From Oscillospiraceae bacterium (GTDB lineage: Bacteria > Bacillota > Clostridia > Oscillospirales > Ruminococcaceae), in contig JAFLUF010000002.1 in the NCBI GenBank assembly GCA_022508925.1, positions 35,137-69,459 of the forward strand: a stretch of DNA of 34,323 nucleotides, given 5' to 3'. Made by a program: the position numbers and the translations under genes. Below are positions 4,531 to 9,844 of the stretch, piece by piece (the first letter of the stretch is position 1; every line of letters begins with the position of its first letter). A model generated the notes under the pieces. It was given only the letters and a program-made list of their open reading frames with translations. It did not search any database and was not told the DNA's origin.

Positions 4531-4552
4531 AATTATTCTTTAATATTACAAT

Positions 4553-4679
4553 TCAACCGTCTTTTCAAAAGGCGAGCCGCCTTTGGCAACACGTTCCACA
4601 CGCGTAACGTTACCAAACGCTGTTGCTCGAGTCGTGCGATACTTCTGTATCACACGCTCCTTAAAGAAAAGACGGTTGA
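4553..4679 (-). ncRNA. Candidate structured RNA (four-way junction) or small MITE-like inverted-repeat element
   Basis: Perfect 14-bp terminal inverted repeat TCAACCGTCTTTTC/GAAAAGACGGTTGA enclosing three further hairpins. One internal pair is a G-U wobble only on the minus strand. Confidence 0.5.
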
Positions 4680-4684
4680 TTTTT

Positions 4685-4927
4685 TTACTTAGCTCTCTGC
4701 ACAAGTATATCGATCATTTCGCCGACATTTTTCATTCCGCTTACCTCGCGCATTGTAAAACGCATTTTAAACGCCTTTTCAACCGCCGCGATAAGACTGA
4801 TATGCTCAAGACTGTCCCATGCTTCAATATCGTCGGCAGTTGTACTGTCTGAGAGTTCGATCTTCTCATCGTCAAAAACGCTTCTGAAAACATCCGTCAG
4901 TTTTACGGTTATTTCTTCCCTGTTCAT
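4685..4927 (-). CDS. Acyl carrier protein (phosphopantetheine attachment site)
   Basis: DSL motif in context: DIEAWDSLEHISLIAAVEKAFKMRF. Start taken at MNREE with GAGGAG RBS rather than the ORF-track Met at 4942. Confidence 0.88.
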   Translation of the reverse strand: MNREEITVKLTDVFRSVFDDEKIELSDSTTADDIEAWDSLEHISLIAAVEKAFKMRFTMREVSGMKNVGEMIDILVQRAK

Positions 4928-4931
4928 AAAA

Positions 4932-6713
4932 TCACTCCTCATTTACAGAAATTACTTTGTTTTTATATTCGTAGTCCGCTGTCCGAAGCCGCCATACAGT
5001 GCTTCCGTTATCGTCCGAGATCTTATCAAATCCGAATTTTTCATACAGATCCTTTACCATTGAATTCTTTTTGGTCGGATAGTAATAACCGACGATCTCG
5101 GTTATTCCGGCTTGTTTAGCCTGCCTTACAAGCTCGTCCAGCATCGCAAGCTCCATATCGCGCTTTAAAACACGACAGCTCATCAGCCAGAGGTCTATAT
5201 GAAGCTTCTCATTGTTCTTACGGCCGATCACGACTGAAACAATACCGTTATCGCCGAATTTATCGCAAAGCCTTCCGCAAAGGCGGATATACGCGGGATC
5301 TTTCGCGCACGCCTCCATTTCGCTCTGAGTATAACGCTTTGTGGTAAGATTGAACTGATTGCTTTTGTTTGTAAGCTGTGTGATGCGCGGAATGTGTATC
5401 TCATCGAAATCGCGTATCTGCGCTTTCATTTCAAGACTTAACAAAAACTCTCCGTAATTCGAGTATTTTTTCTCAAGAGAGGCTCTCTCGGCATTCGCGC
5501 GGTACATTTCATTGCGCTGAGCGTCATCTTTTGAAAGCGTAGTCACTTCAAAAAAGCCAAGCCTGTCAAGCGCCTTTACGCATTCTTCGGGACTGTCGAA
5601 ATCAACAACAGCCGCCTCGGGTAGCTGTGCGCGGACGATCTCACGCTCGGCGGGATTGTCATCCACAAAAACAATACTCTCCGGCAAAAGATTAAGCTCG
5701 CTTTCGGTCTCCTCAAGATTAAGCCATTTTTCATTCCAGTTTGCTTTTATACAGGCAAAATCCTCGGGTTTTAATATCCCGTCGGGATGTTCAAGTCCCA
5801 AAAGCGCGTTTTCGCGGTCATTTTTCGAGCAAACCGTAAGCAGAACACCAAGCTTTTTATGCTCTTTAAAATACTCCTGAACAGCTGAAAAAGTCTGTCC
5901 CTCGCTTGTTTCACTGCCTATCTCAATGCCGGACTGTCCGTCGTCGCCGATGACTCCACCCCAGAGAGTGTTGTCAAGATCAAGCGCGAGAAGCTTTTTG
6001 TTCCTGCCCATGATAGAACAAATTATCTTTGACAGATTAAACGCAAAGTCGGGTATCGCGTCGAGGTTCATCGCGTATTTATACAAATGCCAATATCGCG
6101 GCTGTGACCACCTTTCCAGCCCGTAGGACGCGGAAACATAATTTATATCGTTGATGTAGAAGTTCTTATGCGTTTCGGAATAATCGTAGAACTTGCAGTT
6201 AAGGCGCGTTATGAAGTCGATTTTTCCGTAAGAACAGCCTGCCTCGCGGTTTCCCATAAGCCTGTAATACGGAAGCTCGAAGTTGTTTTGAATGATCGGA
6301 CAACCGAATCTCTCCGAAAGCGCCGTCCACATCTGCTCAAAGCGAGAATACTCGCTGTCAAGCTTTGTGTTTACCTCTTCTCTGCTCTCAAGTATCTCGG
6401 GAAAGCTTTCTATGTTTCGCGTCGTCGTGTGAATAAAAATCAGTTCGGGTCCAAACGCGCTGAGCTCGTCATTCCCGAAAACCGCGTCGTTATAGTACTG
6501 AGCGTACTCCGACTCGTAAAACTCGGGAGCTATCCCGCGCTGTCTGAGAAACAGCTCGAGAATCTTTACTATATCAGAAGTCGTCGAGCCGCCAAGAACA
6601 GCGATCTTCAGCTTTATCGCTTCATTTTCGCGCTCTTTAAGTATGCGCAGCAGCTTTTTCTTATCCTGCAGTATCTTTGTGCCGTCAAAGGGCGGCGTAA
6701 GTTCAGTCAGCAT
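4932..6713 (-). CDS. FkbH-like HAD-IIIC family protein with C-terminal GNAT domain
   Basis: HAD motif I LALDLDNTLWGGVIGDDG, VDDNPAEREIVR, and C-terminal GNAT-like LDELVRQAKQAGITEIVGYYYPTKKNSMVKDLYEKFGF; AAGGAG RBS. Confidence 0.9.
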   Translation of the reverse strand: MLTELTPPFDGTKILQDKKKLLRILKERENEAIKLKIAVLGGSTTSDIVKILELFLRQRGIAPEFYESEYAQYYNDAVFGNDELSAFGPELIFIHTTTRNIESFPEILESREEVNTKLDSEYSRFEQMWTALSERFGCPIIQNNFELPYYRLMGNREAGCSYGKIDFITRLNCKFYDYSETHKNFYINDINYVSASYGLERWSQPRYWHLYKYAMNLDAIPDFAFNLSKIICSIMGRNKKLLALDLDNTLWGGVIGDDGQSGIEIGSETSEGQTFSAVQEYFKEHKKLGVLLTVCSKNDRENALLGLEHPDGILKPEDFACIKANWNEKWLNLEETESELNLLPESIVFVDDNPAEREIVRAQLPEAAVVDFDSPEECVKALDRLGFFEVTTLSKDDAQRNEMYRANAERASLEKKYSNYGEFLLSLEMKAQIRDFDEIHIPRITQLTNKSNQFNLTTKRYTQSEMEACAKDPAYIRLCGRLCDKFGDNGIVSVVIGRKNNEKLHIDLWLMSCRVLKRDMELAMLDELVRQAKQAGITEIVGYYYPTKKNSMVKDLYEKFGFDKISDDNGSTVWRLRTADYEYKNKVISVNEE

Positions 6714-6738
6714 AACTTCTCCTTAACACAGAGTAATC

Positions 6739-6773
6739 AACAAAACAAGGGGAAACCCCGCAAGGGTATCCCC
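6739..6773 (-). terminator. Intrinsic terminator or attenuator between the DHHW gene and the FkbH gene
   Basis: Minus strand GGGGATACCC-TTGCG-GGGTTTCCCC (one mismatch) followed by TTGTTTTGTT. Confidence 0.55.
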
Positions 6774-6781
6774 GTAATATT

Positions 6782-7939
6782 TTAATACAGCTCTTTGAGA
6801 TTAGACTCGTTTGTTGAGCCAGTAGCGCTGAAAGTGTTCATAACAAACACAAGATCGGTAATGCCGTAATTTTTCGCGATTTCGACCGCGTTTACCTTGT
6901 TGCGCATATCGATTACGATTATCTCCTCAAAGGAGCTCGTAAGGAAAGGCACAAAAGCGTTTCCGTAGCTGTCCTTGATTATCATAAGCTTTCTGCCGTT
7001 TTTGCAGTCGGTCGTAACGTGTTTTATATCGTTATCAAGTCCGAATATCAGATACCACTCCGACGGGTCATACAAATCTATTGTAGCGGGCAGCTTTACA
7101 TTGGGATTTAAGACCTCTGTCATCTGAGTATCGTATTTTACCACATTGTAGGAATTTGGCGGAATATAATACGTAAAAGTATCGGGATTGTTCTTTATTC
7201 TCGAATCTCCGTTGCTGTAGTGATAAAGCGCACCCACAAAGCCCTCCCGTGTAACGGTCTCATACTCAGAAAGAGGCGTAAAGGAAACTCCCGCGGCCTT
7301 CGCAAACTCCTGCGCGGCATAATACGCTCCGAGCGGCTGCCAGTGGTGGTCTGTGCGGAAGAAAATATACTCGGACTTGTGCTTTTCAAATACGCTGTAA
7401 ACATCAACGGGCGTTACTCCGGAAAGATACCCGTTTATATTATCTATATTGTCCTTTTCGCTTGCCATATACTTTTTATACTCGTTGGGAAGGTAAAATG
7501 ACCCCGACGTCGGAGAAACAAGAGAATAGACCTTAACATCTCCGAGCAGCTCTTTAAACTTGTTAAGCTGCTTCGCATAATCCTGCCCTACCGCTTTTCC
7601 GCCGCCGTAAAGAGAAAACGTGCTTCCGTCATCAAATATCGCAAGACCTCCCGACAACTCGCCGTTGCCCATTGCGGGAGTCTGCGTTCCGGAAGAACTG
7701 CTTTGCGATTCCGAAGAACTGTCAGTTTTCTCCTCTGATGAAGAATCGACGGTTGAAGATGAATTCTCCGCTGAAGAATCGGAATCGACCGTTTCGGAAA
7801 AGCTGTTGTTTTCGTTCATGATAATATCGTTGATATCCGGCAGCGAGCCGTCATCAACAACAATATTACAGCCGCTTGAACATACAACCGCAAAAAGTGC
7901 TAAAACTGATGCAAGAATTTTTGTTGGATTTGTTTTCAT
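6782..7939 (-). CDS. DHHW-family (AlgJ/AlgX-like SGNH) lipoprotein with Ser-rich linker
   Basis: Lipobox VVCSSGC; Ser/Glu-rich linker; RTDHHWQPLGAYYAA; IIKDSYGNAFVPFL. AGGGGAA-type RBS. Confidence 0.85.
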   Translation of the reverse strand: MKTNPTKILASVLALFAVVCSSGCNIVVDDGSLPDINDIIMNENNSFSETVDSDSSAENSSSTVDSSSEEKTDSSSESQSSSSGTQTPAMGNGELSGGLAIFDDGSTFSLYGGGKAVGQDYAKQLNKFKELLGDVKVYSLVSPTSGSFYLPNEYKKYMASEKDNIDNINGYLSGVTPVDVYSVFEKHKSEYIFFRTDHHWQPLGAYYAAQEFAKAAGVSFTPLSEYETVTREGFVGALYHYSNGDSRIKNNPDTFTYYIPPNSYNVVKYDTQMTEVLNPNVKLPATIDLYDPSEWYLIFGLDNDIKHVTTDCKNGRKLMIIKDSYGNAFVPFLTSSFEEIIVIDMRNKVNAVEIAKNYGITDLVFVMNTFSATGSTNESNLKELY

Positions 7940-7979
7940 AATGCTTTCCCCTTTTATTATTCTGAGCTATTGCTCTTAA

Positions 7980-8324
7980 TTACTCCTCTATCTCGGGCAA
8001 AGGTCCCACAAAGTGCGCGCCGCCCTCGATATCAAAGCCAAGATGTCCGCGTACTTCGGCTATGATCTCCTTCCAATTGCTTCTCATTGGAACAGCGTCA
8101 TTATAATATTCGGAAAATTTTTCGGTAAACTCACCGCTGAAATAACTCTCAACGGTAAACCTCGGACAGCTTGCGAGTTTTCTTTTTTCCTCAACGGAAA
8201 CAGTCGGACGCTCAGCCGTGTTTATAAACACAGTGATACCCGCAAACACCGCAAGTATTGCCGCGATATTGAAAATGATCAATCCGTGCGGCGTTTTCTT
8301 TACATTTTTCTCCTGCTGCTCCAT
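7980..8324 (-). CDS. DHHW-protein N-terminal-like domain, single-TM protein
   Basis: One TM helix then RPTVSVEEKRKLASCPRFTVESYFSGEFTEKFSEYYNDAVPMRSNWKEI, typical of the start of DHHW/AlgJ-like proteins. Own GGAGG RBS. Confidence 0.65.
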   Translation of the reverse strand: MEQQEKNVKKTPHGLIIFNIAAILAVFAGITVFINTAERPTVSVEEKRKLASCPRFTVESYFSGEFTEKFSEYYNDAVPMRSNWKEIIAEVRGHLGFDIEGGAHFVGPLPEIEE

Positions 8325-8347
8325 AAATCCTCCGATATGTTAAGCCA

Positions 8348-9751
8348 TTAAAATCTCCAGTACAAAAAGGCGTCTGTCGTCGCGTCCACAAGCATGATAC
8401 TGCTTAAAGCAAGCATTCCCATGCATAAAACCGTTCCGCTTACGGAAATAACCGTCCTTGCGGCATAGTTTTTCTCCGCGAGCTTTCCGAACGCTTTCAT
8501 CAGCGGGAAAGTACAGATTATCGCAGCCGCGATGAGATATACGTTGCCGCACAGCGACGAAAGTTCAAACTCTCCGCCCCAGCCGTTCGGATTAAACGGA
8601 GTAATGTTTCTGAAGAATAATCCGAGCTCTCCGATATCCTCGAAATAAAAGATGCCAAATCCGATTATTATAACAAACTTGCTGTAGATATGCCGTATCA
8701 CAAGCGGAATTTTGTTCATATTCTTTTTCCCGATACGGGTCTCAAGAAGTATAAACAATCCGTAGTACAGACCCCACAAGATATAATTCCAGCTTGCTCC
8801 GTGCCATATTCCCGTACAAAGCCATACAAGGAACAGACTTAAGTATTTGTTTCTCTTTCCGAAAAACGTAACTGGAAGCAGATAATCCCTGAAGAACGAG
8901 CCGAGGGAAATGTGCCAGCGCTGCCAGAACTCGGTTATGTCCTTACACAGATAAGGGTGGTCAAAGTTCTCGTTGAAATGAAATCCGAATATCCTGCCCA
9001 ATCCGATAGCAATATCCGAGTAGCCCGAAAAATCAAAGTAGATGTACAGCGAATACAGAATAATTCCATACCATGAACCGGAAATCGTAACCGAGCTAAT
9101 GCTCCCGCCAAACATATCCTCTACTATTCTAAAAAGCTGATCAGCGAGAAGCACCTTTTTGGACAGTCCGATCACAAATCTTGTCAGTCCCTGGCTGAAA
9201 TCCTCAAGAGTTGTTCTGCGGTTGTCGATCTCCGCCGCGATAGTTTCGTAGCGGACGATCGGTCCGGCAATAAGCTGAGGAAACAGACAGACATACAAAA
9301 GCATCTTGAAAAAATTCTTCTGCGGCTGTATCTTTCCCCAATAGCAATCAACAATGTACGAAATGACCTGAAATGTGTAAAAGCTTATTCCCGCCATCAG
9401 AACGATCTCGGGCACCGGAAGGTCGGCGGAGAATATCGAGTTTATATTTCTCATGATAAACCCGCTGTACTTGAAAACGCCGATCATTCCTATATTGAAT
9501 ATCAGACCGCCCGCAAGACACAGCTTCTGGTATTTCTCCTGTTTGAACTTTCCGATCCCGAGCCCGACGAAATAGTTTACGACTGCGGAAAGAACAAGAA
9601 AAACCACCCGCGTCGGCTCTCCCCATGAATAAAACGCGAGCGAAAGTATGATAAGTACAGCATTCTTCGCCTTTATCGGCTTAAACACCATATACGCAAC
9701 AAGGCATATCGGCAAAAACAGATATAAAAAAATAAGACTTGAAAAAACCAT
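8348..9751 (-). CDS. MBOAT family O-acyltransferase (AlgI/DltB-like)
   Basis: FPQLIAGPIVRYETI, YIYFDFSGYSDIAIGLGRIFGF, ITEFWQRWHISLGSFFRDYL and TGIWHGASWNYILWGLYYG are MBOAT hallmarks. Confidence 0.95.
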   Translation of the reverse strand: MVFSSLIFLYLFLPICLVAYMVFKPIKAKNAVLIILSLAFYSWGEPTRVVFLVLSAVVNYFVGLGIGKFKQEKYQKLCLAGGLIFNIGMIGVFKYSGFIMRNINSIFSADLPVPEIVLMAGISFYTFQVISYIVDCYWGKIQPQKNFFKMLLYVCLFPQLIAGPIVRYETIAAEIDNRRTTLEDFSQGLTRFVIGLSKKVLLADQLFRIVEDMFGGSISSVTISGSWYGIILYSLYIYFDFSGYSDIAIGLGRIFGFHFNENFDHPYLCKDITEFWQRWHISLGSFFRDYLLPVTFFGKRNKYLSLFLVWLCTGIWHGASWNYILWGLYYGLFILLETRIGKKNMNKIPLVIRHIYSKFVIIIGFGIFYFEDIGELGLFFRNITPFNPNGWGGEFELSSLCGNVYLIAAAIICTFPLMKAFGKLAEKNYAARTVISVSGTVLCMGMLALSSIMLVDATTDAFLYWRF

Positions 9752-9815
9752 TTATACTCCATCCGACCTCAAAATCGGCAATATTTTGCAAATTACGCAC
9801 AATTTCACATATATA

Positions 9816-9844
9816 TTTATAGCACTTTTCAAGTGTCTTGTCAA
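9816..9844 (-). promoter_or_regulatory. Housekeeping sigma promoter for the MBOAT operon
   Basis: Minus strand TTGACA - 17 nt (AGACACTTGAAAAGTGC) - TATAAA, upstream of the MBOAT start. Confidence 0.75.

Follow-up and report, generated by a model that had tools for sequence, protein, structure and literature searches.

The stretch of DNA analysed here, hereafter the window, comprises 34,323 nucleotides of contig JAFLUF010000002.1 (positions 35,137 to 69,459, assembly GCA_022508925.1) from an Oscillospiraceae bacterium, and carries a candidate operon for acylation of the cell surface. On its minus strand, from position 9751 to 4685, five open reading frames (ORFs) follow each other in series: an MBOAT protein, the N-terminal part of a DHHW protein, a DHHW catalytic lipoprotein, an FkbH-type loader and an acyl carrier protein (ACP) (Table 1). 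An earlier note, made from the sequence alone, had listed these five genes together with their MBOAT, DHHW/SGNH, HAD and ACP motifs, all of which are present according to profile matches and the sequence itself. The intergenic gaps are 23, 40 and 68 nt, followed by about 4 nt if the ACP starts at position 4927. The same note had let a single promoter lead into the whole series. The promoter itself, TTGACA and TATAAA at a spacing of 17 nt, is there and matches 11 of 12 consensus bases when read by eye (it is missing from the promoter scan because the scan requires a final T). That it serves all five genes is only likely, since a weak terminator-like hairpin precedes FkbH.

Table 1. Features of the candidate surface-acylation operon, in order of transcription (positions within the window).
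Feature	Position	Strand	Evidence or remark
Sigma-70-type promoter, TTGACA-17-TATAAA	9816..9844	minus	Predicted, from sequence; 65 nt upstream of the MBOAT start codon
MBOAT, 467 aa, putative membrane O-acyltransferase exporting an acyl group	8348..9751	minus	PF03062, E 6e-26
MBOAT donor loop, residues 290-304	8840..8884	minus	Occupies the place of YIPLGGNR in carrier-less MBOATs
Acyl-shuttle motif FLYWRF (FXYXXF) with Tyr464, C-terminal end of the MBOAT (residues 462-467)	8351..8368	minus	Sequence
DHHW N-part, 114 aa: one transmembrane helix and the N-terminal stretch of a DHHW protein	7980..8324	minus	PF14286 positions 1-48, 17 bits, below the cut-off of 25
DHHW-family SGNH catalytic lipoprotein, 385 aa	6782..7939	minus	PF14286 positions 79-385, E 9e-44, 150.7 bits (cut-off 25)
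Weak terminator-like hairpin between DHHW lipoprotein and FkbH	6745..6761	minus	Fold z -2.1
FkbH-type loader, 593 aa: FkbH_N, HAD phosphatase (D245, D247), C-terminal GNAT-fold domain (Cys513)	4932..6713	minus	TIGR01686, PF21211
ACP with WDSLEH, predicted phosphopantetheine serine at 4813-4811	4685..4942	minus	PF00550, just above cut-off

The MBOAT protein carries the histidine motifs WHISL (H280) and WHGAS (H317), and both histidines as well as Y464 are invariant in an alignment of 53 rows. Its AlphaFold2 model (predicted local distance difference test score, pLDDT, 90.4) has DltB as best fold match in the PDB (6bug, E 7e-12, template-modelling scores 0.61/0.68), while against the DltB equivalog TIGR04091 the sequence reaches 152.7 bits, below the cut-off of 375. 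Tyr464 lies in the C-terminal FLYWRF, which conforms to FXYXXF, and in PatA and DltX the tyrosine of this motif serves as carrier of the acyl group (PMC12148441). This motif or a near form of it was found in 102 of the 107 MBOATs compared, and it recurs as FLYQGF in a Sinorhizobium meliloti MBOAT and as FIYFNF in an MBOAT of the Rhodobacteraceae.

The DHHW protein is encoded in two pieces. The N-part, which scores weakly by profile, was assigned also by alignment to the one-piece DHHW proteins of relatives. The lipoprotein shows the lipobox CSSGC, DHHW at residues 197-200, the serine motif KDSYGN at 322-327 and DMR at 344. A frameshift as origin of the two pieces was excluded, as the same division recurs among related species (L031, L091, L092, L093, L097 and L098; L-numbers are our handles for the compared records), where each piece has its own start and the second piece a lipobox. 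The nearest relatives likewise have a membrane-anchored N-part, accompanied by at least one catalytic lipoprotein (L093 and L097 have three), and sister lineages have a one-piece DHHW protein with a single membrane helix. One extra lipoprotein copy in each of L093 and L097 (L093:5400, L097:5251) has KEAFAN replacing the serine motif, and these paralogs may be inactive. Among solved structures the window lipoprotein matches 4NZK (E 9e-75) and, more weakly, Bacillus cereus PatB1 (BcPatB1, 5V8E; E 4e-7). The first stretch shown of the 4NZK chain is identical to part of an L034 protein encoded two genes upstream of an FkbH-ACP pair, and because of this identity an FkbH-ACP-linked cluster probably already has a member of known structure.

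The FkbH protein scores 292.8 bits against TIGR01686 (cut-off 146.65) and contains an FkbH_N domain (PF21211). Its HAD motif, DLDNTLWGGVIGDDG, begins at residue 245, and LDLDNTLWGG and VDDNPAER are conserved. The HAD aspartates and Cys513 (in LWLMSCRVLKR) do not vary across the alignment, its most distant relatives included. The earlier note had named a lack of the residues needed for acyl transfer as a point against itself; FkbH retains its catalytic residues. According to the AlphaFold2 model (pLDDT 90.2) and PDB matches, the N-terminal and HAD part resembles 3SLR and the C-terminal domain has a fold like that of GNAT acetyltransferases. FkbH proteins have been proposed to hold the glyceryl group on a cysteine of the enzyme. 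Described FkbH enzymes form glyceryl-ACP (PMC7489565), and FkbH loading has also been reported elsewhere (PMC3679948).

In the long form of the ACP reading frame, the serine of the DSL motif is Ser44. The true start is more likely the sixth codon, a methionine at position 4927 which stands behind GAGGAG and about 4 nt past the FkbH stop; related ACPs are mostly 77-85 amino acids long. WDSx is present in all 122 related ACPs, and the median gap between FkbH and ACP in relatives is 3 nt. The nearest solved structure is 2LML (67 bits), and comparison with DltC models gave no match. Phosphopantetheinyl transferases are present in the source genome.

The association of these genes was followed through a family sample of 199 genomes, 76 of which contain an FkbH relative. 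Neighbourhoods were compared at 61 loci (60 and the window) and, separately, at 80 named loci from a species collection. An MBOAT lies within 7 kb of FkbH at 26 of the 61 family-sample loci, versus about one expected (the chance estimate was computed for 27), and within 6.5 kb at 58 of the 80 named loci, 34 of these 58 also having a DHHW gene. Rare co-occurrence in relatives would have spoken against the earlier note, and the opposite was found by a wide margin. The clade of the window MBOAT occurs in 35 of the 199 genomes (34 placed by tree, one by identity). An FkbH of the window type is present in 30 of these 35, versus any FkbH in 46 of the 164 others (Fisher p 2.6e-10, with kinship not corrected). 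Five genomes are exceptions: two sister species (L174 and L175) have MBOAT, DHHW and ACP adjacent and a divergent FkbH elsewhere; one genome is 55% complete; and two genomes of a single genus (L184 and L185) have no FkbH and an MBOAT loop reading YIP[LM]GGNR.

Three kinds of arrangement cover the main part of the 61 neighbourhoods. The gene order of kind A, MBOAT-DHHW-FkbH-ACP, persists in many genera of the family. Kind B consists of FkbH-ACP-MaoC-SDR-GNAT, without MBOAT. In kind C the FkbH-ACP pair is joined by a different MBOAT and, mostly, by a non-DHHW SGNH-like protein; this kind is found mainly in Lachnospiraceae, including Eisenbergiella tayi DSM 26961, adjoins genes for glycosyltransferases and a polysaccharide flippase, and at some loci has MaoC and SDR genes added. 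Tree placement separates the MBOATs of kinds A and C into two subfamilies, while their FkbH proteins are close kin; the loader-carrier pair has therefore been joined to MBOAT/SGNH pairs at least twice. Beyond the family, 39 records of S. meliloti pSymB-type replicons hold an MBOAT (FLYQGF), an SGNH-like protein, an ACP (WDSLSN) and FkbH (at 631205-636239 of pSymB in S. meliloti 1021), and a similar FkbH/ACP/MBOAT module is found on a Rhodobacteraceae plasmid.

Two side observations concern these neighbours. Kind B-type clusters (L062, L064-L071, L074, L076-L081, L089 and similar) often adjoin a gene resembling class A penicillin-binding proteins, and possibly make a lactyl-type acyl group for an N-acyltransferase. 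On an S. meliloti plasmid, the gene between MBOAT and ACP (L211:2386-3612) is annotated as a TonB-dependent receptor, which is probably a misannotation: the product has no Pfam match and resembles secreted proteins of the SGNH type (FLVGGSTTAMYSPDDI).

Polyketide pathways are a known setting for FkbH-ACP pairs, and on one plasmid such a pair stands among ketosynthase genes. The pair in the window might likewise supply a small secreted molecule or a lipid, with the MBOAT acylating that product and not a surface polymer. We consider this very improbable. Neither ketosynthase nor nonribosomal peptide synthetase genes were seen near the operon in the window, which also disposes, within the window, of the linked polyketide pathway that the earlier note had named as an alternative; none were recognised beside MBOAT-linked relatives. 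Moreover, the MBOAT is partnered by a secreted SGNH protein whose serine/histidine set is intact, and some relatives sit in glycan clusters.

The MBOAT loop that separates the two histidine motifs bears on the nature of the acyl donor. In DltB of L. plantarum the cytoplasmic loop at the same position (Met298 to Arg313) contacts DltC (PMC9338922). Carrier-less MBOATs have YIPLGGNR or something close to it at this place, kind A MBOATs, which are linked to FkbH-ACP, have YVPIFGKRRKY or similar (YLLPVTFFGKRNKY in the window), and kind C MBOATs have a longer basic stretch. The pattern was noticed in 107 MBOATs and then tried on 41 further MBOATs of the same family, chosen by search rank. None of these 41 has a linked ACP, and YxPxGG is present in 40, the loop of the remaining one (L232) not being extractable. 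When all 148 were pooled, an ACP was found in the locus for 73 of the 87 MBOATs without the GG loop versus 2 of the 61 with it; for most of the 14 non-GG MBOATs without a local ACP, the genome has FkbH at another place, the contig breaks off within the locus or the distance limit is just exceeded. A small sample from outside the family (n=12) was made up of ten plasmid MBOATs, picked from a single search before their loops were read, and two FkbH-linked ones. Here GG was absent in all four cases with a carrier gene (S. meliloti, Rhodobacteraceae, a Metabacillus cluster with ACP and AMP-ligase, and DltB), and the GG loop was present in seven of the eight without a carrier, two of them adjoining AlgF, with Tistrella deviating. 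The loop, a good if not final sign, argues that the donor of the window MBOAT is the ACP rather than coenzyme A (CoA). The Metabacillus genes (Metabacillus sp. B2-18 plasmid, L269:2772-7100) code consecutively for an ACP, an AMP-binding ligase, an MBOAT and a hypothetical protein, a cluster of carrier-fed type that bears no Dlt annotation.

A supply from acetyl-CoA has nevertheless to be weighed. MBOAT and DHHW protein would then O-acetylate a surface polymer in the manner presumed for PatA1/PatB1, and the FkbH-ACP pair would be independent and merely share the operon. MBOAT-DHHW pairs that lack FkbH-ACP are indeed frequent within this family, and BcPatB1, the DHHW protein that has been described, is an O-acetyltransferase acting on a secondary cell wall polysaccharide (PMC9487903). 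However, the FkbH-linked MBOATs form a clade of their own in which the YIPLGGNR loop, kept in carrier-less pairs, has been lost; the ACP remains beside MBOAT and DHHW where FkbH has moved away; and the combination turns up with two different MBOAT/SGNH pairs as well as in a second phylum. For these reasons we judge the acetyl-CoA scheme to be improbable.

We think it probable, instead, that the operon encodes a carrier-protein-fed machine for cell-surface O-acylation, in which a glyceryl group loaded by FkbH would travel from the ACP through the MBOAT and the DHHW protein to a surface glycan. Computation shows which genes make up the set and how widely it is conserved, that the catalytic motifs are intact, and that the shuttle motif and the loop signature are present; the loading from 1,3-bisphosphoglycerate and the acyl-tyrosine and acyl-serine steps are carried over from the named families. 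In this scheme, FkbH would draw a three-carbon acyl-phosphate, most likely D-1,3-bisphosphoglycerate, from glycolysis, its HAD domain would remove the 3-phosphate, and the glyceryl group would be loaded on the phosphopantetheine of the ACP. As the existing mixed anhydride pays for the thioester, no ATP-dependent adenylating enzyme would be needed. The ACP would dock on the cytoplasmic loop between the histidine motifs, and the MBOAT would carry the acyl group through the membrane and place it on Tyr464, within its own FLYWRF. Finally, the DHHW protein, made up of the membrane-anchored N-part and the lipoprotein, would accept it on its serine and pass it to a hydroxyl of the surface glycan.

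That the group is glyceryl and not another three-carbon acyl, and that the acceptor is a surface glycan, is our guess. The earlier note had offered "glyceryl or lactyl" as examples; of the two, glyceryl is favoured because kind A has neither dehydratase nor reductase. The module could also work as described and export lactyl, another reduced or dehydrated three-carbon acyl, or an acyl group from a different acyl-phosphate. In support of this, the same FkbH-ACP pair occurs together with MaoC, SDR, MBOAT and SGNH genes at L140, L151, L162 and L164, where glyceryl-ACP could be reduced, and the substrate specificity of FkbH is not readable from sequence at this locus. In the kinds bearing MaoC and SDR, the acyl group may be a reduced one such as lactyl. 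On the other hand, the window operon and nearly all MBOAT-DHHW-FkbH-ACP loci are without MaoC and SDR, which makes unmodified glyceryl the simpler choice, and it is glyceryl-ACP that the described FkbH enzymes yield (PMC7489565). An exported group other than glyceryl is therefore unlikely for the window.

Several points weigh against the carrier-fed glyceryl scheme. Both the acyl group and the acceptor are inferred, and no glycan gene adjoins the operon in the window. The loop pattern was first noticed post hoc, in the 107 MBOATs, before it was tried on the further 41. A tree-aware test of the loop is underpowered: among about six changes of loop type, carrier presence follows in about three and almost never goes the opposite way (sign test p 0.25). 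A GG loop stands beside an ACP in L102 and L134, L055 and Tistrella have neither GG loop nor carrier, and the loop of L232 is not resolved. At L057, L083, L124 and L136, FkbH lies beside an MBOAT without a recognised ACP, and all four MBOATs have GG loops; FkbH linkage alone is therefore no proof of carrier use. FkbH-ACP also occurs without any MBOAT, accompanied by MaoC, SDR and GNAT genes, and the pair is therefore not dedicated to surface acylation in all relatives.

We lean, by a small measure, towards a more general proposal: a widespread class of surface acylation would use carrier-bound three-carbon acids from glycolytic acyl-phosphates, and the loop would reveal the donor, CoA or carrier, of any bacterial MBOAT. 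It would read YIPLGGNR where the MBOAT is carrier-less and presumably CoA-fed, and would be replaced in the FkbH-ACP, AMP-ligase-ACP and DltC types.

Among known systems, Dlt follows the course proposed here, from a carrier through an MBOAT and an FXYXXF tyrosine to an SGNH serine and a surface polymer, and DltB is the nearest fold to the window MBOAT. It differs in its loader, the adenylating DltA in place of FkbH, in the shuttle tyrosine, which lies in DltX and not inside the MBOAT, and in the extracellular enzyme, DltD as opposed to DHHW. In the source genome, which is about 90% complete, the best score against DltA (TIGR01734) is 87.8 bits, far below the cut-off of 559.85, and DltD (PF04914) gave no match. 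These values fit the idea of the earlier note that FkbH stands in place of an adenylating DltA. A true Dlt operon was excluded by the DltA, DltD and DltB scores. What the note called "Dlt-like" would hold for the proposed scheme of a carrier-fed MBOAT, whereas the components in the membrane and outside the cell belong to the PatA1/PatB1 kind and not to DltB/DltX/DltD. Likewise, its reading of export from ACP to surface gains support from the shuttle motif, the loop, the MBOAT-DHHW-ACP adjacency without FkbH and the module in another phylum, and had to be corrected as regards the Dlt-type parts and the choice of acyl group.

PatA1/PatB1 of B. cereus and CcsH/CcsI of clostridial cellulose operons share the MBOAT and DHHW families with the window, whose DHHW protein matches BcPatB1. 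They differ in being described as O-acetylation systems, and the available parts of the reports mention neither carrier nor loader (PMC9487903, PMC7710045). The carrier-less MBOAT-DHHW pairs of relatives differ from the window in retaining YIPLGGNR. PatA/PatB for peptidoglycan and AlgI/AlgX for alginate O-acetylation equally combine an MBOAT bearing a C-terminal shuttle tyrosine with an SGNH transferase (PMC12148441), but the donor of PatA is acetyl-CoA, and MBOATs adjacent to AlgF carry the GGNR loop. In tetronate and methoxymalonyl-ACP pathways, the glyceryl-ACP made by FkbH enters a polyketide, whereas here it would go to the cell surface. GmACP3 of Geobacter metallireducens (PDB 2LML) is the closest solved carrier protein to the window ACP; it reportedly has a WDSLxH/N motif and a suggested role in lipopolysaccharide, and we know of no loader or MBOAT partner assigned to it. 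For sanxan, an AlgI-like protein, SsI, is named, and the available part of the source mentions no loader.

We found no literature linking FkbH with MBOAT surface acylation, subscription papers being outside the coverage, and none in open-licence papers on FkbH and O-antigen or on FkbH, Sinorhizobium and polysaccharide. The gene set, which occurs in many other bacteria including S. meliloti, seems to be previously undescribed. Within the MBOAT-SGNH kind, the new element would be FkbH as loader and presumably the acyl group, in a system that would work in a Dlt-like way.

The known bacterial MBOAT-SGNH systems have been described as fed by acetyl-CoA or by a D-alanyl carrier. If the proposed scheme is true, a third supply line would exist, drawing on a glycolytic intermediate without an adenylation step, and esters of glycerate or of a three-carbon relative would be predicted on surface glycans of the abundant gut Oscillospiraceae, Lachnospiraceae and S. 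meliloti. Glycerate esters are known on gellan, in the L form (PMC9104527), while FkbH chemistry would give D-glycerate. If the loop signature holds, carrier use could be predicted from sequence for many uncharacterised MBOATs. The presence of the module in S. meliloti, a genetically tractable model organism, makes the idea readily testable.

Two further features lie past the 3' end of the operon. On the 3' side of the ACP gene (window 4550-4680) stands a near-perfect palindrome of about 130 nt (fold -64 kcal/mol, z -8.2), without Rfam match; its core, about 96 bp long, has matches at about 39 sites of the source genome, some of them in tandem. A small gene past the ACP (4530-4159), without Pfam match, looks like a C39 peptidase when read by eye and adjoins the operon in the nearest relatives only.

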